Source: Muribaculum sp.
Lineage (GTDB): Bacteria; Bacteroidota; Bacteroidia; Bacteroidales; Muribaculaceae
NCBI GenBank assembly: GCA_023667055.1
Contig: JAMPAV010000001.1
Location: 312,716-376,715 of the forward strand
Length of the DNA: 64,000 bases
Direction: 5' to 3'
Shown here: one piece after another, positions 10,401 to 61,413 of the stretch
Layout: each line of letters starts with the position of its first letter
Position numbering within the stretch: position 1 is the stretch's first letter
Position numbers and translations under genes: made by a program
Notes under the pieces: model-generated
Told to the model about the DNA's origin: nothing
Databases searched by the model: none
What the model saw: only the letters and a program-made list of their open reading frames with translations

Positions 10401-11006
10401 TTATTTAGAATAGAGCTCGACGATCAGCTGCTCCTTAATGTTCTCAGGAATATCCGCACGCTGGGGGAGGTGAAGGAACTTACCGCCCTTCACGCTTTCG
10501 TCCCATTCAATCCAGGGATATTTGCTGTGATTGAAGCCGGCCAGATTATCGGCTATCACTTCAAGAGACTTTGATTTTTCGCGAACAGCTACCACATCAC
10601 CCGGTTTAACCTGATATGAAGGAATGTTGACAACATCTCCGTTGACAGTGATGTGTTTGTGAAGAACAATCTGACGAGCAGCCGGACGTGAAGGAGCAAT
10701 ACCAAGACGATATACCACGTTGTCGAGACGGCTTTCGAGCAACTGAAGGAGCACCTCGCCGGTGATGCCTTTGGTGTGAGCGGCACGTTCGAAAAGGTTG
10801 CGGAACTGACGTTCAAGCACGCCATAGGTATATTTAGCTTTCTGCTTTTCCTTAAGCTGAGTGCCGTATTCAGAAGTCTTGCGGCGACGGTTGTTGCCAT
10901 GCTGACCCGGGGGATAATTCTTTTTGGTCAGAACTTTGTCTTCACCGAAGATGGCCTCGCCGAATTTACGAGCGATTTTAGTTTTTGGGCCTGTGTATCT
11001 TGCCAT
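10401..11006 (-). CDS. rpsD: Small ribosomal subunit protein S4
   Basis: Primary 16S rRNA binder that nucleates 30S assembly. 201 residues beginning [17 protein letters not shown]; the S4 RNA-binding domain is at about 93-155 ([19 protein letters not shown]). In other bacteria S4 represses its own operon. The gene is separated from rpsK by 152 bp, the third-longest gap within the superoperon, and that gap can fold, so an autoregulatory leader is possible. Confidence 0.98.
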
Positions 11007-11158
11007 TTTTTTAAATTCTTAGATGATTTGACTTTAATAAAAGAGTGTCAAAACAGAAGATCCATTCGATAGGCGCATCGCCCTTAGCGCAGCCGCGACC
11101 CCTCGAGAGGTAGAAAATCGTGAGGGTCATTCGCATTCAGGCGACACAACTGATATAA
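11007..11158 (-). promoter_or_regulatory. Structured gap between rpsK and rpsD
   Basis: This 152-bp spacer contains a GACCC...GGGTC stem with an inner hairpin CTCTCGAG, and a tight GGCG-ATG-CGCC hairpin on the minus strand. No promoter match was found. By position it is a candidate binding leader for S4 or another ribosomal protein, but that is inference. Confidence 0.35.
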
Positions 11159-11548
11159 TTAGACTCTTCTTCTCTTAGGAGGACGACATCCGTTGTGCGG
11201 AAGCGGAGTAACATCGACAATTTCGACTACTTCAATTCCGGCACCATGTACTGTACGGATTGCTGATTCGCGACCATTGCCCGGACCCTTGACATAGGCC
11301 TTCACCTTGCGGAGGCCGAGGTCGTAAGCAACTTTTGCACAGTCCTGTGCAGCCATCTGGGCAGCATAGGGAGTATTTTTCTTACTACCGCGGAAGCCCA
11401 TCTTACCTGCTGAAGACCAAGATATCACCTGACCTTCAGAGTTGGCTAAGCACACGATAATGTTGTTGAAGGAAGAGTGTACGTGGAGCTGACCCATAGC
11501 GTCAACCTTGACATTTCTCTTCTTCGCTGCGACTGTCTTTTTTGCCAT
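11159..11548 (-). CDS. rpsK: Small ribosomal subunit protein S11
   Basis: Platform protein of the 30S subunit near the mRNA exit. 129 residues with the conserved [14 protein letters not shown] and the C-terminal [17 protein letters not shown]. Located 9 bp after rpsM. Length and termini are normal. Confidence 0.98.
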
Positions 11549-11557
11549 AATTTATAA

Positions 11558-11938
11558 TTATTTAGTAGCTTTCTTCTTGTTAGCAACAGTTTTCTTGCGG
11601 CCCTTGCGAGTACGAGCATTGTTTTTTGTGCTCTGACCTCTGACGGGAAGGCCAAGACGATGGCGGATGCCACGATAGCAACCGATATCCATCAGACGCT
11701 TGATGTTGAGTTGGATTTCACTACGGAGGTCACCTTCCACCTTATATTCGGTCTGGATAACTTCACGCACAGCAGCAGCCTGGTCATCGGTCCAATCCTG
11801 AACCTTTATAATACCATCTACACCTGCCTTTTTAAGGATAGTAGAAGCTGCACTACGGCCAATGCCATAGATATATGTGAGGGCGATATCTCCTCTTTTG
11901 TTTTGCGGCAAATCAACGCCGACTATACGTACTGCCAT
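11558..11938 (-). CDS. rpsM: Small ribosomal subunit protein S13
   Basis: Head protein of the 30S subunit that contacts the P-site tRNA and the B1 bridges. 126 residues starting [20 protein letters not shown], with a helix-hairpin-helix at about 14-60 and the basic tail [18 protein letters not shown]. First ribosomal gene of the alpha cluster proper, 33 bp after rpmJ. Confidence 0.98.
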
Positions 11939-11971
11939 AATTGAGTTATTACGTTTTTAGTGCGTGGGGCA

Positions 11972-12088
11972 TTAGCCCTGGCGCTGTTTGAGTTTAGGGT
12001 TCTTTTTGTTGATTACGTACAATCTTCCTTTACGACGCACTATCTTGCTGTCGGGAGTGCGCTTTTTGATTGATGCTCTAACTTTCAT
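11972..12088 (-). CDS. rpmJ: Large ribosomal subunit protein L36 (zinc-free form)
   Basis: A 38-residue frame starts at 12088 with [19 protein letters not shown] and ends KLKQRQG, which is unmistakably L36. The CxxC...C...H zinc site of the classic protein is lost (T, S and other residues stand there), so this is the C-minus form that does not bind zinc. It lies between infA (14-bp gap) and rpsM (33 bp), its usual place. Confidence 0.96.
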
Positions 12089-12102
12089 ATAATGTTTCGT
12101 TT

Positions 12103-12321
12103 TTATTTGTAACGGAATGCGATTCTGCCCTTGGAAAGGTCGTAGGGAGACATCTCCACTTTCACCTTATCGCCCGGAAGAATCTTGATATAGTGCATTC
12201 TCATCTTGCCTGAGATATGAGCTGTGATTTCGTGGCCATTCTCAAGTTCCACCTTAAACATAGCGTTGCTCAGTGCTTCAAGAATCACACCATCCTGTTC
12301 GATTGCTGCCTGTTTTGCCAT
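12103..12321 (-). CDS. infA: Translation initiation factor IF-1
   Basis: Single OB-fold (S1-like) factor that blocks the A site during 30S initiation. 72 residues starting [20 protein letters not shown] and ending [10 protein letters not shown], with [26 protein letters not shown] in between. It is 24 bp after map and 14 bp before rpmJ, the conserved map-infA-rpmJ order. Confidence 0.98.
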
Positions 12322-12345
12322 ATAATGATAATTGACGTATAAAAA

Positions 12346-13128
12346 TCAGAAATTCCTGTCGCCAAGTGAATTTTGAATATAATCGAAGGTGGTCAGTATT
12401 TCGGGCTTATCCTCGGTGATAAGGATAGTATGCTCGAAATGAGCCGACGGTTTACGGTCTTTGGTGCGTGTCTGCCATCCGTCTTTTTCAAAGACAATGT
12501 TTTTAGAGCCCATGTTGATCATCGGCTCAATGCAAATGCACATTCCCGGCTTCAGCATCGGTCCGATGCCGCGTCTTCCGTAGTTTGGAATCTCAGGGTC
12601 CTCATGCATCGACTTGCCAATGCCATGTCCGCACATTTCTCTTACCACTGAATATCCGTGATGCTCGCAGAAGGACTGGACTGCATTGCTGACATCGCCA
12701 ACACGCTTGCCTGCCTTGGCGGCTGCAATCCCCTTGTAAAGGGAATCCTTAGTCGTCACGAGCAATTCCATAACCTTCGGATCTATATCACCCACTGCAA
12801 AGGTATAGCAAGAATCGCCGTTGAATCCATTTAGTTCGGCCACGCAGTCAGTGCCGACAATGTCGCCTTCCTTCAGAACGTACTGAGAGGGGAAACCATG
12901 GACAACAGTCTCATTGACCTCAATGCAGAGAGTGCCGGGGAAACCATGATAGCCGAGGCAAGCGGGTTTACCCCCGTTGTCAAGGATATACTCCCTTGCC
13001 ACAGTATCGAGTTGCTTGGTGGTGACACCCGGTTTTATCCATTTGGCCACCTCGCCGAGAGTGCGACTCACAAGGTCGGAGGCCAAACGCACCAATTCGA
13101 TTTCTTCTTCTGTCTTGATAAAAATCAT
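12346..13128 (-). CDS. map: Methionine aminopeptidase, type I
   Basis: Removes the initiator methionine from nascent proteins in the cytoplasm. 260 residues. The pita-bread fold motifs are present: GDIVGTDCVAELNGFNGDS with two metal-binding aspartates, the metal histidine in CGHGIGKSMHE, CIEPM with a metal glutamate, and a final FEHT. No N-terminal SH3-like extension, hence type Ia. It follows secY by 28 bp. Confidence 0.97.
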   Translation of the reverse strand: MIFIKTEEEIELVRLASDLVSRTLGEVAKWIKPGVTTKQLDTVAREYILDNGGKPACLGYHGFPGTLCIEVNETVVHGFPSQYVLKEGDIVGTDCVAELNGFNGDSCYTFAVGDIDPKVMELLVTTKDSLYKGIAAAKAGKRVGDVSNAVQSFCEHHGYSVVREMCGHGIGKSMHEDPEIPNYGRRGIGPMLKPGMCICIEPMINMGSKNIVFEKDGWQTRTKDRKPSAHFEHTILITEDKPEILTTFDYIQNSLGDRNF

Positions 13129-27652: not shown

Positions 27653-29338
27653 CTATTTGTAGAGTTTGTCGATAGTGGGAGAAGTTGTCTCGTATTGTGG
27701 CATGACGTAGCCGATTCTGCTACCTTTATAAGTGGGGTCTGCACTATAAAATTTGATACCTTCTGTGTTATAATACCGCCCTGTCACAGGATCATTGACA
27801 GCGACAGCAACGCTTTCATGCCCCGGATATTGAATCAACTGACAGGGGAGATCGAAAGCATTCCAAATGAGATAGGACATGAACATTGCCCTGTCCTCAC
27901 AGTCGTTGTATTCGTAAAGAAAGTTTTCCTCAAAGAAGTATGGTTTCTCGAAAATGTGCCAATCCTGGTCGCTTTTATATTTGAACTGGTAGTGACAAAG
28001 AGACATGAGAGCGTTGACGGCATCCTTTCGGCTCATCCCCCCAAGCTGATCGCGCACCTGAGCCGTAATGCTTTCCCTCAAATTGAAATCAAGCCAAGAA
28101 GAAGCGAAGTCGCCATTGGGCATCTGAGGGTAACGATACAACATAGCCTTAAGATTTTCATTTACGACACCCTTCAAGGTCAGGAAATCATTTGACAAAG
28201 AAAACTCCACCGGCTTAACCGGTAGCACAAGACCGGCAATCCTAAGGTCGGATGTCTTTCCTATAGCCTCAGATGTCATGGCGCAGGTGCGGAATGTCAG
28301 CGGCTCCCCTTTTTTGCGTTGATAGCCTTCAGGAAAAAGGACTGTATATTTCCTGCCGTTGTCGTCAGGTAAAGACAAGGATGAATATACAACCTTCTGG
28401 TCGAATGGCATCATAACAGTGAGAATATCGTTTGCCATCAACAGACGCACATCATATCCCATGTTGGAAAGCAAGAAATGCACAGCCGACATTCTTGCGC
28501 TCAGATCAGAATCCTGAAACCGCTGATTGACATAAGCCTCGACAAGACGAAAGGTAAGATAACCATTCAGGCCATGCTGACGGGCAAGGCCAAAGAGCTG
28601 ACGAGCTGTTTCAATACCGCCTGACTGACCCGCCATCATTTTCCAATGGGTGCCGGTCTGCATAAAGCCTTCAAATTCCTTCAATATTTCAAGCGGATAT
28701 TCAAGTATATACGCTTTCATTCCGTAGAAATCGAAGAAAAATTTGTTGTGAGAATCAGGAATGCTATCGCCAAAATTAATCAAGCCACACTCCCCAGGCA
28801 AAGGAAGCGGTTTCTGTCCGGGCAGAGGGCCGAACAGAAATTCAGGATCCGGAATGTTGTAAGCCGACATTTCGAAATTGCTCTTATTTTGCCCGGACTC
28901 AGAAGAAAACAAATTGCTGTTGAAGTCATCCGCAATACTTTTTTTATTCAACAAAGCCGGTGTGGGAAAATTATCATCAGCCTTTGGCACGCCTCCAGGC
29001 GCGGCAACCGGATTTACCGCCGGAAGACTTAATCCGTTCAATTGAATCCCGGGATCATAATTCCCGGCCATGTTTGTTTCATTAGCTTCTATTTCGATAA
29101 ATTCCGGCAGTTCTTTTGGTTTTGGCTCAGTATATGGGCTTTCCGGTTCCATGATAGGCTCGAATTCGTGCCATTCTCCGTTGAGGAAATCGTCGTAATG
29201 CTCAAGGATACGAGACTTGAACTTGGAATAATCACTGAAAATCTGCTGCCGGAACTGATTGAAACTTGCGAGAGGACTCTCGGCATTTACCGCCAGGCCC
29301 CCCAATAAAACACATAAAAGAGTGATCCGATTGCGCAT
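27653..29338 (-). CDS. Secreted transglutaminase-like protein
   Basis: 561 residues with a signal peptide (MRNRITLLCVLLGGLAVNAES). Residues 30-170 are proline- and acid-rich and probably a flexible linker. The C-terminal 150 residues have the transglutaminase/papain-like fold with the triad Cys480 (YNDCEDRA), His507 (YPGHESVAV) and Asp534 (ADPTY). Members act as proteases or transamidases on peptides; activity here is inferred. It is transcribed divergently from the DUF4384-barrel-caspase operon, with 267 bp between the starts, and a TAAATTTG -7 element stands at 29429-29422, 84 bp upstream. The pairing with a caspase operon suggests a shared periplasmic or surface process. Confidence 0.82.
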   Translation of the reverse strand: MRNRITLLCVLLGGLAVNAESPLASFNQFRQQIFSDYSKFKSRILEHYDDFLNGEWHEFEPIMEPESPYTEPKPKELPEFIEIEANETNMAGNYDPGIQLNGLSLPAVNPVAAPGGVPKADDNFPTPALLNKKSIADDFNSNLFSSESGQNKSNFEMSAYNIPDPEFLFGPLPGQKPLPLPGECGLINFGDSIPDSHNKFFFDFYGMKAYILEYPLEILKEFEGFMQTGTHWKMMAGQSGGIETARQLFGLARQHGLNGYLTFRLVEAYVNQRFQDSDLSARMSAVHFLLSNMGYDVRLLMANDILTVMMPFDQKVVYSSLSLPDDNGRKYTVLFPEGYQRKKGEPLTFRTCAMTSEAIGKTSDLRIAGLVLPVKPVEFSLSNDFLTLKGVVNENLKAMLYRYPQMPNGDFASSWLDFNLRESITAQVRDQLGGMSRKDAVNALMSLCHYQFKYKSDQDWHIFEKPYFFEENFLYEYNDCEDRAMFMSYLIWNAFDLPCQLIQYPGHESVAVAVNDPVTGRYYNTEGIKFYSADPTYKGSRIGYVMPQYETTSPTIDKLYK

Positions 29339-29421
29339 GGTGTAATAGTAAAAGTTTCTTTATATTTATATGGTCAAGCGTTGGCTTGGCAAGGCATGCA
29401 ATCTGCCTTGTTAACGATTTG

Positions 29422-29429
29422 CAAATTTA
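29422..29429 (-). promoter_or_regulatory. Possible -7 element of the transglutaminase-like gene
   Basis: TAAATTTG on the minus strand matches TAnnTTTG. The best TTG upstream is only 17 bp away, so the promoter is less certain than others in this window. Confidence 0.4.
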
Positions 29430-29511
29430 CAAATAATTTTTGAAAACAAGAAATATAAGTATGCAAACACTATATTTTTTGGTTTATTTTGCTTTCTTTT
29501 TACAATTTTGG

Positions 29512-29542
29512 TTTGAGTTTACAATTAAATTTGTTAATTTTG
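29512..29542 (+). promoter_or_regulatory. Promoter of the DUF4384-barrel-caspase operon
   Basis: TTTG at 29512-29515, a 19-bp spacer and TAATTTTG at 29535-29542. Predicted start near 29550, 56 nt before the chosen ATG at 29606. Confidence 0.78.
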
Positions 29543-29605
29543 CAGACTGAAAGAGAAGATAGAGGGGTCTAATGATTAGACTTGCAGATTATAAATTTTC
29601 CATTC

Positions 29606-30499
29606 ATGACAAAAAAGACTAACTATAAGGCACCAATAGGCTTTGCTGTCGCATCCATATTACTGTTTGGCATTGGCCAGGCCCGGGCCCAGCGCACAGC
29701 AACTGTATCAGCAAAATATGATTATGTGCTCGGAGAGAACGACAATGTCACCATCCGGCAGGCCAAACTAAAGGCATTGGATATGGCAAGATCGGAAGCC
29801 ATAAAGAATGAATTCGGCATGCTCGTGGCTTCCGACTTCATCAACACCGAGGTCGGGGCCAACGACGAATTCAGTTCTTATTATATGGCAGAGACCTCAA
29901 CCTCAGTGAAGGGGGAATGGCTTGGCGATGAATCCGAGCCAAAAGTTGAGATGATGCTTGATCCGAACGGAGATTTGCATTTCATAGCTGAAGTGAAGGG
30001 AAAGGCGAGGGAAATAGTAAGGGCAAAGACAGACTTGAAATGGTCGGTACAAAGGGTTGCAGGAGGAAGGAAAACAGATGCCGATGAATTTGACAACAAA
30101 GAGCGGTTCTACATAAACTTCAAATCGCCCGCCGACGGATACCTTGCAGTGTATCTCATCACAGGAGATGATGACACATCATGTCTTCTCCCCTACCGCA
30201 GCGACACAAGCGGACGTTTTGAAGTCAAGGGTGGCGAAGAATATGCATTGTTTGACAAGAGTCTGAACCCCAAGGCCGATTACTACAGATTCAGCACCCA
30301 ATTGCCAAGAGAGTCAAACCAACTTGTAGTGCTTTATTCACCCCATCCATTTACAAAGTGCACCGACACAAGCAAGGATCCCAAAAGGCCCAACGTCCTA
30401 AGCCAAAAAGATTTCGCAAAATGGCTTCTGAAGATGCAGCGGGCAGACAATGAACTTGTGGTGAACAAGAAGTGGGTGACAATCAATGGTACGGAGTAA
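29606..30499 (+). CDS. Secreted LPP20-like/DUF4384 protein
   Basis: The ATG at 29606 (297 residues) is preferred because it opens a signal peptide ending near ARAQ; an in-frame ATG eight codons earlier adds no signal character. Residues 45-150 look like the LPP20/FlgP-like fold (TIRQAKLKALDMARSEAIKN followed by a strand-rich part). Residues about 160-265 match DUF4384 (FYINFKSPADGYLAVYLITG...LLPYRS...Y.LF), a domain often fused or adjacent to caspase-like peptidases in Bacteroidetes and Proteobacteria. First gene of a three-gene operon, 19 bp before the beta-barrel gene. Likely periplasmic; possibly an adaptor or substrate of the downstream caspase. Confidence 0.8.
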   Translation: MTKKTNYKAPIGFAVASILLFGIGQARAQRTATVSAKYDYVLGENDNVTIRQAKLKALDMARSEAIKNEFGMLVASDFINTEVGANDEFSSYYMAETSTSVKGEWLGDESEPKVEMMLDPNGDLHFIAEVKGKAREIVRAKTDLKWSVQRVAGGRKTDADEFDNKERFYINFKSPADGYLAVYLITGDDDTSCLLPYRSDTSGRFEVKGGEEYALFDKSLNPKADYYRFSTQLPRESNQLVVLYSPHPFTKCTDTSKDPKRPNVLSQKDFAKWLLKMQRADNELVVNKKWVTINGTE

Positions 30500-30518
30500 A
30501 CAACAATAATCAACATAT

Positions 30519-31469
30519 ATGAAAAAGACTTTACTATCATGTATTTTTTTCGCATCAGCAATGATCGCGAATGCCCAGGGCAGAGTCAGCAATGAGACAC
30601 TGATTCTCGACGCTGCGGAAGACACAACGCAGGTCACAACTATAGCTGACATCATCGACATCCAAGAGCGTGTCACCACACAGAACTCAAATGCCGCCCA
30701 CAAAAAAAATGTATGGGGAAGAAAGACATACCTTAATCTTTCCTATATGATGAGCGCATCGCTCAACCCAAGCGAAAAAATAGACTTGGGATATGACAAA
30801 ATCAACAACGGAATAGTACCCAACTTCAAGGCTGACAAGGGAGTCGCATTGCAAATCGGCCACAGCTACGCCCTCCATAAAAAGCCAATAGCAAATGTGG
30901 TGCAATTCAACATTGACTACACATTCATCGACTTAAGTGCGGTCCAATACAAAAAAGAGAAAGGAGACAAACTCTACGACAGTAGCAACACTTGGGAACT
31001 TCCGAAGGAAAACCAGTACAGCCGAACTGAAACCCGCCAATATATTCCATGGGCTCTTGAGAAATGGGATTTCAATTACGGAATGAACTTAGGGCCGTCG
31101 ATAACAATTGCGCCTTTCACCTATCTCAGCGGCGTACCCGGACTTCACTACATGAAACTGAAAGCATATTACCACATCGGCTATCAGGTGGGCGTAATGT
31201 ATATTAAGAACGACAAAAAGGCAGACGTGGCTTACACACAGTCGGAAAATCAATATGTCTCAGATTATCAAGACAACCTTAAGCTCAACTTCAGCCATGG
31301 ACTCACACAGAGTTTCGGGTTCAACTTGTCGTGGAAAGTGATTGGCGTGGGATATGAGACAAGATGGGACAAAAGGACTTACATGAGTGTGACACCGAGC
31401 ATCTTCGGCGACAAGGACTATAAATTCAAAGGCAACAGCAGCAGAGTATATATCCAATTCTGTTACTAA
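30519..31469 (+). CDS. Outer-membrane beta-barrel protein of unknown function
   Basis: 316 residues with a signal peptide (MKKTLLSCIFFASAMIANAQ). From about 70 the sequence alternates polar and aromatic residues in short strands (TYLNLSYMMSASLNP, VVQFNIDYTFIDLS, FGFNLSWKVIGVGYETRW) and ends in SSRVYIQFCY, an aromatic C terminus typical of barrels inserted by BamA. I do not recognise the family. Middle gene of the operon with the DUF4384 protein and the LRR-caspase (53-bp gap), so it may anchor or export them. Confidence 0.72.
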   Translation: MKKTLLSCIFFASAMIANAQGRVSNETLILDAAEDTTQVTTIADIIDIQERVTTQNSNAAHKKNVWGRKTYLNLSYMMSASLNPSEKIDLGYDKINNGIVPNFKADKGVALQIGHSYALHKKPIANVVQFNIDYTFIDLSAVQYKKEKGDKLYDSSNTWELPKENQYSRTETRQYIPWALEKWDFNYGMNLGPSITIAPFTYLSGVPGLHYMKLKAYYHIGYQVGVMYIKNDKKADVAYTQSENQYVSDYQDNLKLNFSHGLTQSFGFNLSWKVIGVGYETRWDKRTYMSVTPSIFGDKDYKFKGNSSRVYIQFCY

Positions 31470-31522
31470 CCTGACTTCGGCAAGTTAATCACAAACATTG
31501 ACAAACAATACAAAGCAAAAAT

Positions 31523-33043
31523 ATGATGAAACATCACATAATAACATTGGTTTTGATTGCGTGCGGCTTTATAAGCGGAATGGCGCAGTCAGTGACATCC
31601 CCCATGGAGGGAAATTGCGGCGACGACTGCAAATGGTCGTTTGACGGCTACACATTGACCATCTCCAATACCAACAAAAAGGGTCTGACAGTGGCAATGA
31701 ATGAATATGACACAAAAAAACTTATTGCACCCTGGAAGAAGAAAAAACTTGATGTCAGGAAAGTGACTATAAAGCCCGGTGTCACATCAATTGGCAGCTG
31801 TGCCTTTGCCAACCTTCCCAACCTTCAGGAAGTGGAATTTGAAGGCACAGACCTGAACCGCATTGGATGGGGAGCATTTTTGAATTGCGACCACCTGCGC
31901 ACAATTTCACTGCCTATCAACGTAAAGAACATCGAGACCATAGCTTTTGCCAACTGCGATGCACTTACATCGGTGTCAATTCCCGACCAATGTAGAGTTG
32001 GAGACCAGGCATACGTGTCGTGCGACAACCTTAAGAGTATCGAAATGAGTCCGACATCGATATTGGGTCATTACGTCTTTGCAGGAGAGGCTGAAATAGA
32101 CGGCAAGCCACGCCACACACTTTATACCGGTGAAGTACGCAAGGTGCCGGCATACGTCAATGCAGAAAACTGCAATGAATTTGGTTTGTCGCCGACATCA
32201 ATTGAAAAGGCTACTTCAAAATATATGACAGAGGTGGATTACGACTACAAGACATCACATGTAGATTCTGAACTCCCGATGTCGTTTTATGCGCGCAAGA
32301 ACACATACGCGCTTGTGATTGGCAACCAGAACTACCGATTTGTGTCGGACGTGCCCTATGCTATTCATGATGCCCGTGTATTTGCAGACTACTGCAAGAA
32401 GACACTTGGCATACCGGCAGCAAACGTGCACATTACTGAAGATGCCACAAAGCAGATGATACTTGAAGAAGAGCTTGAAGACTGGGTTGGCAAGATAAAG
32501 GATAGAGACCAAAGTGCACTCATAGTATATTATGCCGGGCATGGAGTGCCTGACACAAAAGATGGCAACAAGGCATATCTGCTTCCAACAGATGTGCGCG
32601 GCACAAGCCCGCAGAGAGGAATTGCGCTTGATGAATTCTATCGCAGAATAGGTGATCTTGGTTTCAATCAGACCACAGTTTTCCTCGATGCATGTTTCAG
32701 TGGAGTCAACCGCGAAAACAACGGCGTGACCGAGGGTCTTAGAGCTGTGGAAATAGATGTTGACGACACGGCGCTCACCAATGGCAACATGGTGGTATTC
32801 TCAGCAGCCCAAGGCAACGAGACAGCGCAGGGATATCCTGAAGAAGGACATGGTCTGTTCACATATTATCTTCTGAAATCCCTGAGAGATTCCAACGGAG
32901 TGATATCGCTCGGAGGACTGGCAGATAAAATCACCAGCGGAGTCACGACAACAGCACCGCAGATGAAGATGAAAAAGAATCAGACACCAAGCACTAACGC
33001 ATCTGAGAATCTTGGAGACAACTGGCGCAATCTTCGTTTCTGA
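31523..33043 (+). CDS. Secreted caspase-family peptidase with BspA-type leucine-rich repeats
   Basis: 506 residues: signal peptide (1-22), BspA-like LRR_5 repeats (about 85-185, with AFANLPNLQEVEFEGT and AFLNCDHLRTISLP), a linker, and a C14 caspase/metacaspase domain (about 260-500). The catalytic histidine is His340 (VYYAGHG) and the cysteine Cys391 (VFLDACFSG), both in intact motifs, and YALVIGNQNY is the first strand. LRR modules usually bind proteins, so the protease may be directed to a partner or host surface. Last gene of the operon; a long bidirectional terminator follows 11 bp after the stop. No prodomain cleavage site could be predicted. Confidence 0.9.
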   Translation: MMKHHIITLVLIACGFISGMAQSVTSPMEGNCGDDCKWSFDGYTLTISNTNKKGLTVAMNEYDTKKLIAPWKKKKLDVRKVTIKPGVTSIGSCAFANLPNLQEVEFEGTDLNRIGWGAFLNCDHLRTISLPINVKNIETIAFANCDALTSVSIPDQCRVGDQAYVSCDNLKSIEMSPTSILGHYVFAGEAEIDGKPRHTLYTGEVRKVPAYVNAENCNEFGLSPTSIEKATSKYMTEVDYDYKTSHVDSELPMSFYARKNTYALVIGNQNYRFVSDVPYAIHDARVFADYCKKTLGIPAANVHITEDATKQMILEEELEDWVGKIKDRDQSALIVYYAGHGVPDTKDGNKAYLLPTDVRGTSPQRGIALDEFYRRIGDLGFNQTTVFLDACFSGVNRENNGVTEGLRAVEIDVDDTALTNGNMVVFSAAQGNETAQGYPEEGHGLFTYYLLKSLRDSNGVISLGGLADKITSGVTTTAPQMKMKKNQTPSTNASENLGDNWRNLRF

Positions 33044-33054
33044 ATTAGCCGGTT

Positions 33055-33117
33055 GATAATGTCATTACATAATAAGGGCAGGCTTTTGGCCTGCCCTTAT
33101 TATGTAATGACATTATC
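33055..33117. terminator. Bidirectional terminator with a perfect 29-bp stem
   Basis: Arms 33055-33083 and 33089-33117 are exact reverse complements with a 5-base loop; A-rich and T-rich ends in both arms give U runs in both directions. It separates the convergent caspase and cdaA genes and overlaps the cdaA stop by two bases. Confidence 0.85.
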
Positions 33118-33886
33118 AGTCAAAAACAGAGAAAAGATGCTTTTCAAGGTCTGTGCTGGTGATCTTTGTGGTCAGCACTCCATCTTTTGCCACAGAAATG
33201 TTGCCTGTCTCCTCACTGACCACAATACACAGGGCATCGGTCGATTGGCTCATGCCAAGCGCAGCTCGGTGACGCAAGCCGAGATGCTTCGGCAGATTCA
33301 TGTCATGGCTAACAGGGAGAATACACCCTACCGAGACTATACGTCTTCTCGCTATTATCATGGCCCCATCATGAAGAGGGGAATTCTTGAAGAATATATT
33401 TTCAATCAGGCGGGTATTGATGCTTGCGTCTATGATGTCGCCGGTACGCTCATAGTCATCAAGAGGAACTTTCCTTTGGAAACATATCAAAGCACCGGTT
33501 TTTGATTTTGACATTGACATGCAGGCATATACCACTGCCATTACGAGGGAATGGTAGGTGGCTCTCTCTTCTTGCTGGTTGTGGGAGAAAATACGTTTTA
33601 GCTGCTTTATGTGTCCCCGCGAGCCGATGTCGATAAGAAAACGTTTTATCTGGTCCTGAAAGAGAATCACAAGTATGATGAGCCCGATGCTCATGAATTT
33701 ATCGAGAATCGTGCCCGTGAGACGCATGTCGAGGATTTCTGCTGCAATGACCCATACAAGGATGAAGAGAAGCACACCATAAAACAGGCTGAGAGTGCCG
33801 CTGCTTTTCATCACCTTATAAAGATAGAAAAGAAGTGCGCCTACTATGAGGATGTCGAGAATGTCTTTAATGCCGAAGGATATCAT
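33116..33886 (-). CDS. cdaA: Diadenylate cyclase CdaA
   Basis: Makes the second messenger c-di-AMP from two ATP at the inner membrane. 256 residues: three N-terminal membrane segments (about 8-25, 33-53, 60-78), then a DAC domain with the DGA motif at 173-175 (LHDGAMII) and RHR at 205-207 (GLRHRAALG). The layout is that of CdaA/YbbP. It is downstream of folP across a 48-bp heptamer array; in Bacteroidetes folP-cdaA pairs are common. c-di-AMP usually controls potassium and osmotic balance. Confidence 0.95.
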   Translation of the reverse strand: MISFGIKDILDILIVGALLFYLYKVMKSSGTLSLFYGVLLFILVWVIAAEILDMRLTGTILDKFMSIGLIILVILFQDQIKRFLIDIGSRGHIKQLKRIFSHNQQEERATYHSLVMAVVYACMSMSKSKTGALICFQRKVPLDDYERTGDIIDASINTRLIENIFFKNSPLHDGAMIIARRRIVSVGCILPVSHDMNLPKHLGLRHRAALGMSQSTDALCIVVSEETGNISVAKDGVLTTKITSTDLEKHLFSVFD

Positions 33887-53820: not shown

Positions 53821-56169
53821 TCAGAAGGGGTAGCCGATGGCGAGGTGCACCGCGAAGGCATCACGGAAAGCCACGTTGAAGTAATGGCCCGTGCCATTGC
53901 TATATGGCGTATGAAGCCCATAACCCACGTCAAGTCGCAATACCAGCATATCCAGGTCGTAGCGCAGTCCCGCGCCCGTGCCGAGCGCAAGATCCTTCAG
54001 GAAAGTCCGTCCGCAAAGCTTACCGCCCGGTCGCAACGGATCCTCCTTCAGAAGCCATATATTACCCGTGTCGATAAAAGCCGCCCCATGCAGGTCGCCG
54101 GCAATCGGAAAACGATACTCCGCATTAAACTCAAACTTGAAAGTACCCGTCTGGTCAAAATAACCGTTGACCTGATTACGCGGAGCCCGGTAGCTGCCCG
54201 GACCTATGGAGCGCACCGTGAAGGCACGGATGGAATTGGCGCCACCGATATAGAACTGCTCCGAATAGGGCACTTCCTTGGAGTTTCCGTAGGCATGTTC
54301 CGCACCAAGCAGCGCACGCATCACGAGCCACTGGTCCTGCTTCGGGAAGAGACGATGATTCCATACGAGCTGCGCCTGTCCCTTGACAAACTGCGAGAAA
54401 GGAGTACCGAAGAGTTTCTTCACCCCCTTCACTCCGCAGAGGCGGTAAATTCCATCAAAGAGATTGCCCGCCTCCGTGAAAGTTGCGGAGAAAGTCAACT
54501 GATTGTTTTGCTCGCGCTCAAACCATCGGTCGTATGTATATGTATAACTCAACTGCGGGATAAACCGGCTTTCAAAACTGAGAGCCACAGCCGGATTCTG
54601 CATCATGATTGAATCAAAGGTGTGGGTGGTGTGGATAAGCTTGTTATATACCAGTTTGAAAGGAGTGAACGAATTGACGGCATGTCTTGTGGCCCTCCAC
54701 TCGTAGGTGATGCCAAGGTTGAACTCCGCCAATTTGAAATATTTCGGACGGTTCAGCACCGAGCCGCCGAGCGAGATAGTGGTCCAGTTGAGGTCGCGTT
54801 GTGAACGAGGGATAAACTTCGGGGCAAGAAGACGCGGAAAGGCCAGCGACGACTGAATGCCAAACTCGTATGAATTGAAGACGCTTGAGCGGTCGCGGCC
54901 CGTCTGCCACTCATAGTCGGCATTTAGCGAGACGGAGAGTTTTTCGGCCCCGCCGAAGATATTGTTGTGTGAGAACGTACCCACCAGTCCCGGCCCAATG
55001 TAGGAATTGGACTTGGAGGTGGCGTTGAGTTCAAGCGAGACCTCCATAGGGCGGTCGTATCTGGCAGTGATATACACGTCCATGAGCGGATTCGCAGCCG
55101 AAGTGTCGGCAGGCACCGGCTGAATCTCAATGTTGGAGAAGATGCCGAGACGCGCCAGACGTGTCTGCGTGCGGTCCATGTCGCGTACAGAAAAGACTCG
55201 TCCCTCGCGGAATGTGATGCACTCCGGAATCATCGACTTGCGTACGCGCTGCGGACGCATGATGATCAGCTTCCCCTTGTCGGTCTGCAACGTGTCGGGG
55301 GTGCCGTCCTTGTAGCGTTCGTTGCGCAGCAGGATGGTGACGATGTTGTTGGTCTTATATTTGTTGCGGGCGAGAGCCGGCATATTGTCGATGAAATCCA
55401 TCTTCATGGCCACTTTATGAGGAGTCATGAAAGTGTCGGCAAGAAACTCGATGTATTCTGGCCTGAAATAGTAGTAGCCACGGTTGCGAAGATGATTGGC
55501 GATGTTCACACGCAGCGAGGAGAGCGAATCTACACAGAATATGGCACCTTTCTGAAACCATGCGCTTTTCCGTGCGAGCGAGTCGATGAAATGCGACATT
55601 GAGTCGTTCGGGCGGTTAATATACTGAATGCTGTCGATGCGGTAGGGTGATGATATGTCGAATGTGTAGGCTATTGAGGCCTTCTTGTCGTTTTTCTTGT
55701 CGGGTATCAGCTCGTAGGAGGCAGTGGACCCGAAATAACCGTTGTCACCGAGGATCTGCTCCACCATCTTCATCCTTTGGTTGGCGCGGACATCGGAAAT
55801 AAGCACCGGTTCGCTGCCGAGCCAGTTGTAGATCCATTTCTTTACACCTTTCACCGAATCAGTCCAGTTGTTGTAGAGCCAGAGACCGACGGGGAAAGGA
55901 TATCGGAACTTTGAGTATGGATATAGCAGCGGCGTGGCGTTGTTGGGACGCACCGCGACTGCCTGGTTGAGGTCGGAGAGCAACGCCGCCGGGATCTTCT
56001 CATCGTCGGTGGGGTTGACCTTGATATTCTTCACACCCGTGTATAGCACCTCCCCATCTCCCAGACGCTTGGTGGTGGAGCAGGCGGCGCCGCCGGCTAT
56101 GCCGGCTGCGCAAACAATAAGTAATAAACAATGAGTAATGAGTATGTGGAGCTTGGATCTATTTGTCAT
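53821..56169 (-). CDS. BamA/TamA-family outer-membrane protein (lipobox-bearing)
   Basis: The ATG at 56169 (782 residues) opens a signal sequence with lipobox GAAC (MTNRSKLHILITHCLLLIVC...), so the N terminus may be lipidated, as in Bacteroidetes TamA-like proteins; the frame extends 22 codons upstream. POTRA-like regions (about 40-360; VEQILGDNGYFGSTASYEL, RIDSIQYINR, RLARLGIFSNIEIQPV) precede a C-terminal Omp85 barrel (about 370-782) that ends HLAIGYPF, with an aromatic last residue, and contains the conserved RAF-type motif SIRAFTVRSIGPGSYR. It overlaps the end of tamB by 11 bp. The pair probably inserts or transports envelope components. Confidence 0.92.
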   Translation of the reverse strand: MTNRSKLHILITHCLLLIVCAAGIAGGAACSTTKRLGDGEVLYTGVKNIKVNPTDDEKIPAALLSDLNQAVAVRPNNATPLLYPYSKFRYPFPVGLWLYNNWTDSVKGVKKWIYNWLGSEPVLISDVRANQRMKMVEQILGDNGYFGSTASYELIPDKKNDKKASIAYTFDISSPYRIDSIQYINRPNDSMSHFIDSLARKSAWFQKGAIFCVDSLSSLRVNIANHLRNRGYYYFRPEYIEFLADTFMTPHKVAMKMDFIDNMPALARNKYKTNNIVTILLRNERYKDGTPDTLQTDKGKLIIMRPQRVRKSMIPECITFREGRVFSVRDMDRTQTRLARLGIFSNIEIQPVPADTSAANPLMDVYITARYDRPMEVSLELNATSKSNSYIGPGLVGTFSHNNIFGGAEKLSVSLNADYEWQTGRDRSSVFNSYEFGIQSSLAFPRLLAPKFIPRSQRDLNWTTISLGGSVLNRPKYFKLAEFNLGITYEWRATRHAVNSFTPFKLVYNKLIHTTHTFDSIMMQNPAVALSFESRFIPQLSYTYTYDRWFEREQNNQLTFSATFTEAGNLFDGIYRLCGVKGVKKLFGTPFSQFVKGQAQLVWNHRLFPKQDQWLVMRALLGAEHAYGNSKEVPYSEQFYIGGANSIRAFTVRSIGPGSYRAPRNQVNGYFDQTGTFKFEFNAEYRFPIAGDLHGAAFIDTGNIWLLKEDPLRPGGKLCGRTFLKDLALGTGAGLRYDLDMLVLRLDVGYGLHTPYSNGTGHYFNVAFRDAFAVHLAIGYPF

Positions 56170-59100
56170 CGTCGGAAGGATTTTGAGGATTAGGGTCATT
56201 AGGGTCCTTAGAGTCTTTAAGGTCTTTAAGGTCATCAGGGGCTTGGATGGAGTCGTTGGGGGCCGGGACTTCCACCTTCTTCGGCTTCTTCCAAAGCTTG
56301 CTGAGCCCGAAGTGTGTGATTTCGGTGAAGTATGCCAGGCGGCGGCGCAGATTCAGGCCGACACCGGTCTCCGTGATCTCACCCTCTAAGATGCTCTCAA
56401 AACCGGTATGGCGAAAGAGTTTCGCATTCAGACTCATATTGTTGGTCTGCTTGAGGATGTACTCGAAAGCTATGTCGCTGATAAGATTCTGCTGGAAATT
56501 CTCGTCGGCGGAGGCATCGGTGGAGTAATTTCCACCCACAAGTATCTTAAACCGATTGTTTATCAGCGATTTCGACACCTGATATGAGTAAGATGTCGTG
56601 GTGGAGGTGTTTCCATTAGTGCCTTGCTCATACTGATCCACGCCGAAATTGATATCCACACCCTTGATGTTGTTGGCGGCAAAGGCATTGAGGCGCGAGG
56701 TGAGGAAACTGTAAAGCTGACCGGTGACCATGTTGCCCTTCACCGACTTCGCACCGGGTCCCGTGTAGCTGCCTGTGATCAGCAGGTTCATCGCCTGCTG
56801 CTGCCGCTGTTCGGCTGTCATCGACTGCAGTTCGTTGCTGATGCTCATGTCGTCGTTGGTGGAGAGGTCAAACACCACCGAAGGCGCGGAGAGTGTGTTG
56901 CCGATGTTGAGCGAGACTATGAAGTTGACAAGGCTGGTGTTGCCGTTCATCTGCACGTTGGTCTTCATCTCGTCGGAGGCCTTTATGTCGAGCATCGGGT
57001 TGAGGATATCACCGTTCCAGGTGATGTGGCTGTCGCGGTCAAACTCAAACGACTTCCGTCCCACCACCGGTATGGAATAGTTGGCATATCCGGTTCCGGT
57101 GTAGAGAGTGCCGTTGAGCCTCATGTCGCCCATGTAGTTTTGGAAATAATTGAGTGTGCCGGAAGGGTTGCACTCTATCTTTCCGCCGCCGGTCACAATG
57201 TCGCCGGTTATGTTGACCGCCACCTGTGCGCCCTGTGATATGGTCGCCTTGGCTGTGATGCGCATGGAGAGCGATGAGGAAAGGGAATCCTTCTGCGCCA
57301 CGAGTGTGGAGTCGGCGAAGTTGACGAAGCGGACCACGTCATCGGTTCCGGACTGCCCCGACAGCATATCGGAGCCACCCATCATCAGGTTGTAGGTGAC
57401 GTCGGTAGTGGGCAGAATGTCGAGCATGGCGTCGATGTTCATGCGCGACATCGGGCCGGTCACGTCGGCGTTGAGATCCACAAAGAGATCGCCGGTGATG
57501 TCACCCTTGCTCTTCTTCCCCCCCACGAGCTGCATGTTCTTCGCATTGGCGTTGAGGTCGAGCAATATGTTGGTGAATTTGGAGGCATCCACTGTGCCGT
57601 TGATGTAGAGGGGATTGTCGTTGACGGCGGAGATGTTGAAGTTGTCAAACTTCAGGACGTTGTCGGCCACCACGATCGGTTCGCTGCCAAGTCGCAGAGT
57701 GGTGCCGAGCATATTGACATATACCCCGATTGAATCGCTCGATATGCTTCCGTTGAGGAGTGGCGCGGTGAAAGTGCCGCTCATGGCCATGTTGCCGTTG
57801 AGCGAGCCTGAGAGACTCATGGTGTTGGTCGGCATGAAGGCGTTGGCTATGGAGAGTGGGAACTTTGTAAGCTCGAGGGTTAGCCGCTCCGCAATCATGC
57901 TTCCACCGGGGTTGATGGTGTCCGGGGCAAGGAGAAACTGTATGGCTGCGGCTTCCTTTTCGTTGACCAGAAAACCGATTTTGCCGCCGCTGCGTCCCTT
58001 GTTGCCCATGCCTGCGGCGAGGGTCAGCGATAGGTCTCCCACCTGCTTGCGGTCATAGACAAGGTCGGAGACATCCAGCGAACCCTTTCCTATGAGGGCC
58101 TTGCCGTTGTAGCTGACGTTTATGTCGGAGTTGACGTTGGCGGTCAGCGGCGGGGCATTGAGCGACATCTGCAGGAAGTCCTGTACGCGGATGTTCTTCA
58201 GATTGAGGTGTAGCGACTCGCCGCCGTCGGCGGTGTCTTCCGAGCGCAGCAGTATGCTGCTTTGGTCGCTGCTTGCCTCAAGGTTGGCGTTGATGCGCTT
58301 TTTTTCGAAATCCACATCGATATAGTTGTCGAGGTTGAATCTCCAGGGGAGATAGGCGATGGTGGCCTTGAGGGGGGTGAAGCGCAGGGAGACGATGGAG
58401 TCGGCGAGAGAGGCCGTGAAACCCACCCTGTAGCCCATTTTCTTCTTTATGTTGTGTTGCACGAGGTATGCCGAGAGACGGTTGTCGCCGAGGTATCCGC
58501 TGAGGTTCACGTCGGCGAACTCGTCCATCACTCCGGGGCGGTTGCCAAGGTGCACCTGATAGTCGATGAGTTGGCCGCGCGATTTCAATCCGAGGGTGAT
58601 TGTGTCGAGTTGGGTGGTGCCTGACCGGAGCGACATCAGGAGCATGTTGCCCTGCAAGAGGGAGTCCTTCTTCAGGTCAAGGTTGAAGGTGCCAAACTGC
58701 ATGCCTGACGACCCGAGGAATTCGTTGACGATTCCCTTGCCATCCACGTCGGCTTTCAGTGTGAAGGGAGGGAGTTTCGACTCTATGCCGGCGACATCCA
58801 CGCGTTTTTCATCCATCATCTTTGGAATCTGAGCCGAGACATCGGAAAAGGCTATGATTAGGTTTTGCAGACCGGATGCGGCGAGGAAACTTACAGATGT
58901 GCCGCGGGCATCAAGGTCGCATTGTGTGTGGTCGGCATCGGCATTCAGCCGCAGTGTCGCGCCTCTCGGCAGAATGAGGTCCTGGTCGGGAAGATGCCAG
59001 TCGATGTTGTCGGCTGTCAGTGTCACGTCATAGTTCCAGGTGCGGGGGGCTGCGTTTCCGGTGATACGGACGCGTCCGGTTCCGTTGCTTGCAGTTGGCG

Positions 59101-61294
59101 ACAAACCCAAGGCCATGAGGTCGAGATTGCGAATGTCGGCCACAAGGTCGGCCTGATAAAAGTCCTCCCCTATCGTGCCGCGACCCGCTATGTTGAAGTT
59201 AAGCGGGGTTGAGAAGGAGTTGGCATCGATGGTGAAGGCTCCGTTTTGGAGTGTGGCTTCCAGGTCGATATTTTTAAGCGACTGGTGATTATAGATGAAA
59301 TTGTCAAGATTGAGTTTTATATCGGTGTGCGCATTCTTCTTCTCGGGGTTGAAACCAGCTCCGGTTGCATATAGCGTTGCGGTGAGCGGACCCATTATTG
59401 TGTCGCCCATGAATGCGCCGACATTGAGGTTTCTGACGTTGACGTTGGCCTCATAGCGTTCGGAGTTCATACCCACCTTGCCATTGCCCACCACACTTCC
59501 GAGAGGGGTGGCGAGCGTGAAGTCGGCGGCATAGTTTTCGCCGGAAACGGAGGCGTTGCCCTTGACCGACAGTTGGGGGATATTGATGCCGGGGGCTTCT
59601 ACGAAGTTCTTTATGACGGAAGGCTTCTGGAGTTCGCCTTCGAATTTCAGGTTTGCGATTAGATTTTTGAGATCGATCACGCCGGCGGATGCTTTGATGC
59701 CCGAAGGCGAGCCTTCGGGAACAGAACGGCTTCGCGCTTTTGTGGCTACTAAATTTTTGGCTTTGCCGCTGGCACGCAGCGAGATGACTCCGGGGATCTT
59801 CACGTCGAATGCGCTTATATCGGCATCGCCAAGGCTTCCTGAAGCCAATATTTTAGCATTGACGGGTGATGATGCGGGAATAACCGAAGTGTAGGCCTTT
59901 AAGTCGGGCATGAAGGCGTTGATGTCGCTGACTCCGATTGAGGCATCCACATCCACGTCGAGAAGTGCGGATGGCAACATCTCCATCAGTGCGTTTGGTA
60001 TGGCTGCAGTGGCGGCGATGCGAGAGTTTGGGGTCTTGATGAGGAAATCCTTAAGCATCATGCCGGCGGAGTCCATTGAGAAGACACCGTGGGATTCCGG
60101 CAAGAGTTGGAGAATTTTGAATTTTGAATTTTGAATTTTGAATTGGGAGAATTTTGAATTTTGAATTTTAAATTTTGAATTGTTTTTTTTGGGTAGGGAT
60201 TCGGAGAGGAGGAGGGAGCCGGAGAGGGTGGAAATGGGGAGGGAGATATCGGTGCCGGCATTGCGGAAGTTTTCGAGGGTGATTGAGAGATTGGAGGCGC
60301 GGATGTCGGAGGGGTTGAAACCGGCTGCTGCCGGTGCACCCTGCACCGCGTAGCGGGCTTCATAACCTGCAAGCGAGACCTTGCCGATTTCAATTATCAT
60401 TGGGGGAGCTGCCGGGGCAGCAACATTTTCACCCGAAAGCGAGCTTTCGGGAACAGAACGGCTTCGCGCTTCCGAACCATTTGCTTCTTGCTGCGGCTCG
60501 GAGACCGCCGCTCCATTCTGCTGCAGATCCGGGGAGAGCATTTGGGCGAGGCCCGTGGTGGCAGAGATGGAGTCGATGCTGATGCGGTTCTTGCCGAGGT
60601 CGATGATGCCGTTGGCAAGCGACACCTGACGTGAGGTGAAGAGGAGGGTGTCGATGGTAGGAGGCATCGACATGACAAACTTTATGTTGTCGAGGGATAG
60701 TTTTTTAGCCTTTAAGAGAAAAGGGGTGGAACTTTCGGAAGTGTCTTTTTCCGCTGTCTTTGAGGGGTCCATGGCGAGGGAGATGATGCCATCCTTTAGA
60801 TAAGCGTCGTTGAGGTCGATGGTGCTTGTGGAGAGGTTAGCGCTCGACTTGTCATCGATTCTGAGCAGACCGGCATTGATGGTCATGAGCATGGAAGAGT
60901 CCGGACTCAGCATACGGTAGTATGCATCGACGAGTTTCAACTCGTTGATCTGAGCGTCGAGATGAAGGAGCGGGAGGAGTTTGACATCGGCGATAACCTC
61001 TTTAGCAAGGACCATGGTGTCGCCTGTGGCCTCGATGATAGCCACATCCTTCAGTGATATGTCGAGGGGGAATTTGAGACGGAATCTTTCAATTCCGATT
61101 TTCATGCCGGTTTTGTCGGCGACAATACCGGAAGCTGTCCTGACGAGGAAATCCTGCACAGGAGGGATATAGAGAAGTATTGGGAGGATAATAATGACGG
61201 CGATGATGCAAAGGATTGTCTTGCCAATCCTTCGCAACCATTTGTGGTGTTTTGTTGGGGCTCCGGCAGGGTTATCGGGAGTCGGGGGCTGCAT
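56159..61294 (-). CDS. tamB: Translocation and assembly module protein TamB
   Basis: The ATG at 61294 (1711 residues) is used because a membrane anchor follows (about 26-46, TILCIIAVIIILPILLYI); the frame extends 28 codons upstream past the promoter. The long body is AsmA-like beta-taco repeats (GMKIGIERFRLKFPLDISLKDV), and the last 400 residues carry the DUF490/TamB domain (GGKIECNPSGTLNYFQNYMGDMRLNGTLY, MSISNELQSMTAEQRQQQAMNLLI). TamB with an Omp85 partner moves lipids or proteins between membranes. Odd: three in-frame repeat insertions (59700-59739, 60432-60525, 60111-60181) and a D-L-K/D-P-N tail encoded by 9-bp repeats that ends at the tamA start. Confidence 0.93.
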   Translation of the reverse strand: MQPPTPDNPAGAPTKHHKWLRRIGKTILCIIAVIIILPILLYIPPVQDFLVRTASGIVADKTGMKIGIERFRLKFPLDISLKDVAIIEATGDTMVLAKEVIADVKLLPLLHLDAQINELKLVDAYYRMLSPDSSMLMTINAGLLRIDDKSSANLSTSTIDLNDAYLKDGIISLAMDPSKTAEKDTSESSTPFLLKAKKLSLDNIKFVMSMPPTIDTLLFTSRQVSLANGIIDLGKNRISIDSISATTGLAQMLSPDLQQNGAAVSEPQQEANGSEARSRSVPESSLSGENVAAPAAPPMIIEIGKVSLAGYEARYAVQGAPAAAGFNPSDIRASNLSITLENFRNAGTDISLPISTLSGSLLLSESLPKKNNSKFKIQNSKFSQFKIQNSKFKILQLLPESHGVFSMDSAGMMLKDFLIKTPNSRIAATAAIPNALMEMLPSALLDVDVDASIGVSDINAFMPDLKAYTSVIPASSPVNAKILASGSLGDADISAFDVKIPGVISLRASGKAKNLVATKARSRSVPEGSPSGIKASAGVIDLKNLIANLKFEGELQKPSVIKNFVEAPGINIPQLSVKGNASVSGENYAADFTLATPLGSVVGNGKVGMNSERYEANVNVRNLNVGAFMGDTIMGPLTATLYATGAGFNPEKKNAHTDIKLNLDNFIYNHQSLKNIDLEATLQNGAFTIDANSFSTPLNFNIAGRGTIGEDFYQADLVADIRNLDLMALGLSPTASNGTGRVRITGNAAPRTWNYDVTLTADNIDWHLPDQDLILPRGATLRLNADADHTQCDLDARGTSVSFLAASGLQNLIIAFSDVSAQIPKMMDEKRVDVAGIESKLPPFTLKADVDGKGIVNEFLGSSGMQFGTFNLDLKKDSLLQGNMLLMSLRSGTTQLDTITLGLKSRGQLIDYQVHLGNRPGVMDEFADVNLSGYLGDNRLSAYLVQHNIKKKMGYRVGFTASLADSIVSLRFTPLKATIAYLPWRFNLDNYIDVDFEKKRINANLEASSDQSSILLRSEDTADGGESLHLNLKNIRVQDFLQMSLNAPPLTANVNSDINVSYNGKALIGKGSLDVSDLVYDRKQVGDLSLTLAAGMGNKGRSGGKIGFLVNEKEAAAIQFLLAPDTINPGGSMIAERLTLELTKFPLSIANAFMPTNTMSLSGSLNGNMAMSGTFTAPLLNGSISSDSIGVYVNMLGTTLRLGSEPIVVADNVLKFDNFNISAVNDNPLYINGTVDASKFTNILLDLNANAKNMQLVGGKKSKGDITGDLFVDLNADVTGPMSRMNIDAMLDILPTTDVTYNLMMGGSDMLSGQSGTDDVVRFVNFADSTLVAQKDSLSSSLSMRITAKATISQGAQVAVNITGDIVTGGGKIECNPSGTLNYFQNYMGDMRLNGTLYTGTGYANYSIPVVGRKSFEFDRDSHITWNGDILNPMLDIKASDEMKTNVQMNGNTSLVNFIVSLNIGNTLSAPSVVFDLSTNDDMSISNELQSMTAEQRQQQAMNLLITGSYTGPGAKSVKGNMVTGQLYSFLTSRLNAFAANNIKGVDINFGVDQYEQGTNGNTSTTTSYSYQVSKSLINNRFKILVGGNYSTDASADENFQQNLISDIAFEYILKQTNNMSLNAKLFRHTGFESILEGEITETGVGLNLRRRLAYFTEITHFGLSKLWKKPKKVEVPAPNDSIQAPDDLKDLKDSKDPNDPNPQNPSDDDK
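59700..59739. repeat. In-frame palindromic element in tamB, copy 1
   Basis: 40 bp with a CCCGAAGG/CCTTCGGG stem and the segment AACAGAACGGCTTCGCGC. In the tamB frame it encodes ARSRSVPEGSPSG. Confidence 0.75.
60111..60181. repeat. In-frame GAATTTT heptamer array in tamB
   Basis: About ten units of GAATTTT and variants within the coding sequence; because 7 is not a multiple of 3, they read as a 7-residue peptide repeat (KIQNSKF-type). Confidence 0.85.
60432..60471. repeat. In-frame palindromic element in tamB, copy 2
   Basis: 38 of 40 bases match copy 1; both changes fall on opposite positions of one stem pair (G-C replaced by A-T), so the hairpin is kept. Encodes ARSRSVPESSLSG. Confidence 0.75.
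60493..60525. repeat. In-frame copy of the intergenic GC-rich repeat
   Basis: 30 of 33 bases match the hairpin core of the 152-bp repeats at 52867-52899, here coding for part of QQNGAAVSEPQQ in TamB. Confidence 0.7.
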
Positions 61295-61334
61295 ACCATC
61301 TTTGACGGTATTTTTATCTTGTGAATCCAAAATG

Positions 61335-61342
61335 CAAAAGTA
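61335..61342 (-). promoter_or_regulatory. Possible -7 element of tamB
   Basis: TACTTTTG on the minus strand matches TAnnTTTG, 41 bp before the chosen ATG. A TTTG stands about 23 bp upstream, somewhat too far for the consensus. Confidence 0.45.
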
Positions 61343-61413
61343 TTTAGTTAGATATATTGGATTAACAAAAGTAGTCACTATAGAGTTTACTCCCCCCTAT
61401 CATTTTCAGACAA

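Follow-up and report, generated by a model that had tools for sequence, protein, structure and literature searches.

A candidate envelope two-protease locus of Muribaculum sp., related to a larger operon of Bacteroidales

Most discussion of bacterial caspases treats them as cytoplasmic effectors of cell death or conflict. Gingipains, which act outside the cell, also belong to the caspase clan. The fimbrillins of Porphyromonas gingivalis are lipoproteins that are cut at the surface by Arg-gingipains, and this processing is required (PMC5954841). In published surveys, WD40, CHASE2 and DUF4384 domains are associated with bacterial caspase homologues, and OmpA genes occur in their operons (PMC3501461, PMC7475262). 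Orthocaspases cleave after positively charged residues (PMC6426788). Another class of bacterial cysteine proteases is represented by LapG (BTLCP) of Pseudomonas and Legionella and by DvhG of Desulfovibrio. LapG is periplasmic and calcium-dependent, has a Cys-His-Asp triad and an Asp-Cys-Glu motif, and its partners are LapD and a giant adhesin. DvhG is calcium-dependent and is inactivated by mutation of the Asp-Cys-Glu motif (D316/C317/E318; PMC13090378).

The locus described here, located in a window of 64,000 nucleotides (the whole stretch of DNA that was analysed), resembles each of these systems in part. Its caspase belongs to the same peptidase family as the surveyed homologues (orthocaspases/metacaspases, Peptidase_C14), and the associated domains overlap, but here the domains are separate predicted exported proteins, arranged in a fixed operon together with a LapG-like protease. 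A caspase-clan cysteine protease predicted outside the cell and, in Bacteroides operons, fimbrillin-like lipoproteins recall the gingipain maturation of type V pilins. Gingipains, however, are of family C25 and type IX-secreted, whereas the window caspase is of family C14. The transglutaminase-like (TG-like) protein of the window has LapG as its nearest solved fold and possesses the same triad and motif and is likewise predicted to be exported, yet it has a long N-terminal extension and is only ~11% identical to LapG. It matches no Pfam family at E up to 1 and no NCBIfam family and is therefore not filed as a LapG/BTLCP member. Its partners are a caspase and a DUF4384 protein rather than LapD and an adhesin; among the operon genes scanned no LapD-type c-di-GMP receptor was found, a CHASE2 protein being present instead. 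The sequence-only reading knew of no described system with this set of genes, and the open-access papers searched on bacterial caspases with DUF4384, CHASE2 or transglutaminase likewise gave none. They contain no description of the operon either, which makes it provisionally undescribed within that literature.

The features of the locus are as follows.

27653..29338, minus strand: candidate cysteine protease of the TG-like (LapG-like) type, 561 aa; intact ORF, member of the operon TG clade
29512..29542, plus strand: Bacteroidetes-type promoter TTTG-N19-TAATTTTG of the DUF4384-barrel-caspase unit; consensus match only
29606..30499, plus strand: DUF4384 protein, 297 aa, predicted exported; from family alignment and caspase linkage
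30519..31469, plus strand: predicted 8-stranded OmpA/NspA-like outer-membrane barrel, 316 aa, N-terminal helix 25-66; from predicted structure
31523..33043, plus strand: predicted exported caspase homologue (Peptidase_C14) with BspA-type LRR, 506 aa, His340/Cys391; from profile matches and alignments

All four ORFs were found uninterrupted where they had been reported. For the DUF4384 gene the listed TTG start at 29582 adds eight codons before the ATG at 29606. The genes of the plus-strand unit are separated by 19 bp (DUF4384-barrel) and 53 bp (barrel-caspase). This unit and the TG-like gene diverge from a common region of 267 bp. The latter gene is on the opposite strand, thus co-expression with the plus-strand unit is not assured. 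The promoter match lies 63 bp upstream of the DUF4384 ATG, and its pattern occurs nine times in the window (1.3 expected). Scans of the region for sigma-70 promoters and terminators gave little or no enrichment over shuffled sequence, and no RNA features were found within the window. The unit is flanked by housekeeping genes, with ribosomal and fusA genes on one side and cdaA and folP on the other. The gene of the CdaA-type c-di-AMP cyclase (33116-33886) is convergent with the caspase gene at a distance of 72 bp and is followed by folP; both are probably chance neighbours. Farther away in the window, an Omp85-family gene adjoins a TamB gene, the usual TAM pair (53821-61378).

Each of the four N-termini resembles a type I signal peptide by eye. 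A crude hydrophobicity test was passed by 94 of 101 TG-like, 61 of 65 DUF4384 and 58 of 71 caspase proteins, compared to 358 of 768 flanking ORFs. The earlier assignment of signal peptides to all four proteins is thus retained by eye and, for the TG-like, DUF4384 and caspase families, by this crude test. Judged from these N-termini, all four window proteins are probably exported.

Linkage was evaluated in 149 genomes of the same family (Muribaculaceae) with a distance limit of 7 kb. The chance expectation assumes random placement in 2.5-Mb genomes, and the gene lists were transcribed by hand. A caspase gene is found within the limit for 53 of 55 DUF4384 genes (0.6 expected), 35 of 71 TG-like genes (0.7 expected) and 26 of 29 genes encoding a beta-propeller protein (under 1 expected). 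Furthermore, a caspase is present in all 44 genomes that hold this DUF4384 protein. The known association of DUF4384 proteins with caspase-like peptidases applies here, and DUF4384 gains an almost obligate partner. The window barrel family, on the other hand, is near a caspase in only three loci. The objection that the genes might not co-occur in other genomes is thus countered for the caspase, DUF4384 and TG-like genes, which are linked beyond chance, while this barrel is no conserved partner. The gene neighbourhoods support a real and widely conserved module of three predicted exported proteins. Half of the TG-like genes in the 149 genomes have no caspase nearby. The TG family also occurs alone in other Bacteroidales and thus has caspase-independent functions as well. 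Stand-alone homologues of ~880 aa with C-terminal SBBP-like repeats (by eye) are present in other Bacteroidales families, mostly without a nearby caspase (L189-L192, L200, L204). Just left of the window, a second TG-like gene of the stand-alone type is located behind two genes for small secreted proteins, LPP20-like by eye (L091:13034-13657, 12172-13095, 10650-12221).

The window locus corresponds, as a rearranged paralogue, to a larger Bacteroidales operon with all genes on one strand; the CHASE2, propeller and TPR-caspase genes of that operon were lost or split in this genome. The parent operon encodes a beta-propeller protein, a TPR-caspase of ~870 aa, a DUF4384 protein, a secreted protein of ~210 aa and a TG-like protein, in some cases preceded by a CHASE2 protein and a secreted protein of ~280 aa. 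This order was found in Muribaculaceae, Bacteroides, Phocaeicola, Rikenellaceae and Alistipes records, mostly metagenome-assembled. The ~210 aa protein has no consistent Pfam match. The ~280 aa protein was suspected by eye to be a FecR, an identity that Pfam does not support. Phylogenetic analysis of 104 TG-like proteins places those of the operon type in a single clade with 71 members (SH-aLRT 100). A caspase is within 7 kb for 58 of these 71, and several of the others are cut by contig ends. The window protein and two of the other three TG-like proteins of the genome are inside this clade; the fourth belongs to the stand-alone type known from other Bacteroidales, where some members are fused to C-terminal repeats. 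The window locus has linked caspase, DUF4384 and TG-like genes, the last from the operon clade. Three genes of the four-gene set represent the conserved module, and the set as such is a derived form of the larger operon.

The ancestral site is preserved in relatives with the order pullulanase, propeller, caspase, DUF4384, ~210 aa protein, TG-like, ~100 aa protein and TypA (L111, L113). In the window genome this site reads pullulanase, ~210 aa protein, TG-like, ~100 aa protein and TypA, the middle genes being gone (L091). No profile match to the propeller gene was obtained in the window genome (assembly 94% complete), although the same profile matches 26 of 149 relatives. Across the phylum the propeller protein was found in none of 395 searched, mostly from other classes, compared to 26/149 in the family and 9/393 in the order. 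The TPR-caspase was not found in the window genome either, both caspases of which are short. A second reduced unit (L092) consists of DUF4384, caspase, another barrel and TG-like genes, and the module genes are scattered over three loci in total. The relative G063 carries the DUF4384-barrel-LRR-caspase arrangement of the window in tandem with a second DUF4384 gene and a second caspase gene (L093), the product of the latter being 91% identical to the operon type. As this tandem suggests, the window unit is most likely the product of a duplication inside the operon, followed by relocation.

The best reading of a conserved, linked module of predicted exported proteins is an envelope proteolytic system. 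An even chance is given to the reading of the window locus as an envelope two-protease module that descends from the conserved operon through duplication and rearrangement. The position of CHASE2 at the head of the parent operon also fits regulated-proteolysis signalling, in which CHASE2 would sense a ligand and the envelope caspase and the LapG-like protease would cut a membrane regulator or adhesin rather than carry out routine maturation of surface proteins. LapG itself is a regulated periplasmic protease (PMC4359373). Signalling is nevertheless unlikely. Many operons, as well as the examined loci of the window genome, lack CHASE2 and the ~280 aa gene, and no regulator adjoins the window unit.

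The window caspase matches Peptidase_C14 (Pfam) with 67.4 bits (cut-off 21.4) and LRR_5 with 75.6 bits. The sequence-only reading described its His340/Cys391 dyad as intact. Both residues are invariant across 15 aligned relatives, and a His-Cys dyad is present in all 86 caspase domains. LRR-caspases recur in 14 of 86 rows, corresponding to four changes on the tree. Assignment to the EACC1-associated caspases was rejected, as NCBIfam NF047832 ("caspase, EACC1-associated type") reaches 72 bits, below the family cut-off of 140 bits. No EACC1 partner was named among the neighbours of the window caspase. Bacterial conflict systems use caspase homologues as effectors (PMC8195603), and the window caspase matches the caspase profile of PADLOC. 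Killing of the cell by the caspase, as part of a cell-death or anti-phage system, is nevertheless distinctly improbable. All proteins of the unit look exported, the unit is set among housekeeping genes, and in a PADLOC search of the four proteins the caspase alone matched, with no partner genes.

The DUF4384 protein of the window scores 21.8 bits with the Pfam profile (cut-off 27), and a relative in the same operon position reaches 29.2 bits. The family aligns end to end.

The TG-like protein consists of a signal peptide (by eye), a conserved N-terminal helix with Trp56, a disordered linker (~95-163) and a conserved domain that holds the DCED motif (479-482), His507 and Asp534. The proposed triad Cys480/His507/Asp534 is confirmed, with Cys480 kept in 103 of 104 relatives and His507 and Asp534 in all 104. 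In the same set Asp479 is present in 103, Glu481 in 102 and Asp482 in 104. Part of these relatives was fetched with a pattern containing DCEDR, which biases the set. The unbiased evidence is therefore the alignment of 26 sequences from whole-genome searches, in which conservation of triad and motif is the same. No credible solved relative was found by sequence. The structural model (pLDDT 80, pTM 0.80) is closest to LapG (4u65_E; Z 10.1, 137 residues, 3.8 Å), followed by a putative cysteine protease, pseudomurein endo-isopeptidases and transglutaminases (Z ~8 to 9). Foldseek alone gives only E = 0.01, indicating a common fold and not a proven family. The Asp-Cys-Glu calcium motif of LapG corresponds to D479-C480-E481 in the window sequence, accompanied by H507 and D534.

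A cross-linking transglutaminase that ties substrates to one another or to the barrel would also possess a Cys-His-Asp triad, and human transglutaminases align to the model at Z ~8. LapG ranks above them, although by small differences in Z, and its calcium motif is conserved. Nearest fold and motif together favour proteolysis, so that cross-linking has a low probability and the protein is more likely a protease, as far as model and alignment indicate. Of the "envelope proteolytic or cross-linking system" suggested before, the proteolytic half is the better reading.

The window barrel has no Pfam match. In the AlphaFold2 model (pLDDT 77.7, pTM 0.69) eight long strands follow a helix of 42 residues, and the closest structures are OmpA and NspA (Z 16). 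8-stranded barrels of the OmpA type have no protein-sized pore. Thus, the suggested function as an exit route is rejected as unlikely, whereas that of an anchor is possible with the OmpA-sized, 8-stranded model. A single conserved barrel family was likewise rejected, because hhalign found no relation between the window barrel and that of the second caspase locus of the genome and because the family is so seldom near a caspase. Unrelated small barrel-type proteins of different families fill the equivalent slot in other operons.

Compared to the G063 copy, the caspase (pN/pS 0.20/0.74), the DUF4384 protein (0.28/0.82) and the barrel (0.41/0.73) of the window are under purifying selection. For caspase and DUF4384 dS is saturated, and pN and pS are therefore reported instead of dN/dS. 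The least probable explanation, a decaying operon remnant without function, could account for the missing propeller and TPR-caspase genes and the spread over three loci, but the genes have no stop codons and intact catalytic triads, pN is far under pS and a consensus promoter is present.

In the envelope two-protease reading, the barrel would sit in the outer membrane and hold or organise the complex. Substrates may be recruited and presented by the DUF4384 protein and by the LRR, the place of which is taken by TPR in the parent operon. The caspase would cleave exported proteins, probably after Arg or Lys by analogy with other orthocaspases. The LapG-like protein may act as a calcium-dependent protease on the same surface substrates, or be activated by caspase cleavage of its disordered linker. 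In the parent operon, the CHASE2 membrane protein could provide the input signal. Surface lipoproteins or pilin-like proteins are the likely substrates, in line with the way gingipains mature the type V pilins of Porphyromonas. That the caspases process such proteins, including activity, substrates and order of action, is inferred from genomic context and analogy. A more far-reaching version is tentative and somewhat unlikely. It proposes an extracytoplasmic caspase cascade in gut Bacteroidales, in which a sensor-headed operon encodes an envelope caspase that activates the LapG-like protease, and the two proteases together mature or release pili or surface lipoproteins. In the window genome this cascade would have been rearranged into two reduced caspase loci that differ in their barrels.

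If the two-protease reading is correct, with a conserved exported caspase and a LapG-like protease paired in Muribaculaceae, Bacteroides and Rikenellaceae, caspases would have a part in the everyday shaping of the cell surface. For gut Bacteroidales that have no gingipains, the pair would in addition be a candidate for the processing of surface lipoproteins and type V pilins.

Two distant Bacteroidales have proteins in which the C-terminal, weakly OmpA-like domain of the propeller protein is joined directly to a caspase domain (L211:3549-5750, L212:2823-4193). The L211 fusion is a lipoprotein and is followed by a DUF4384 gene. These fusions support partnership and envelope attachment. Additionally, the propeller protein and the TPR-caspase have a region of ~150 aa in common. 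In four Bacteroides-type operons (L150, L160, L164, L171), fimbrillin-like (PF13149) lipoproteins and a CarboxypepD_reg protein of ~260 aa are encoded between caspase and DUF4384. The fimbrillin-like lipoproteins hint at possible substrates. Muribaculaceae operons showed no fimbrillin-like genes, however, and a single insertion may be the origin of all four loci. In the operon of one relative, an L,D-transpeptidase (YkuD) gene is located between the caspase and TG-like genes (L023:1010-1480).
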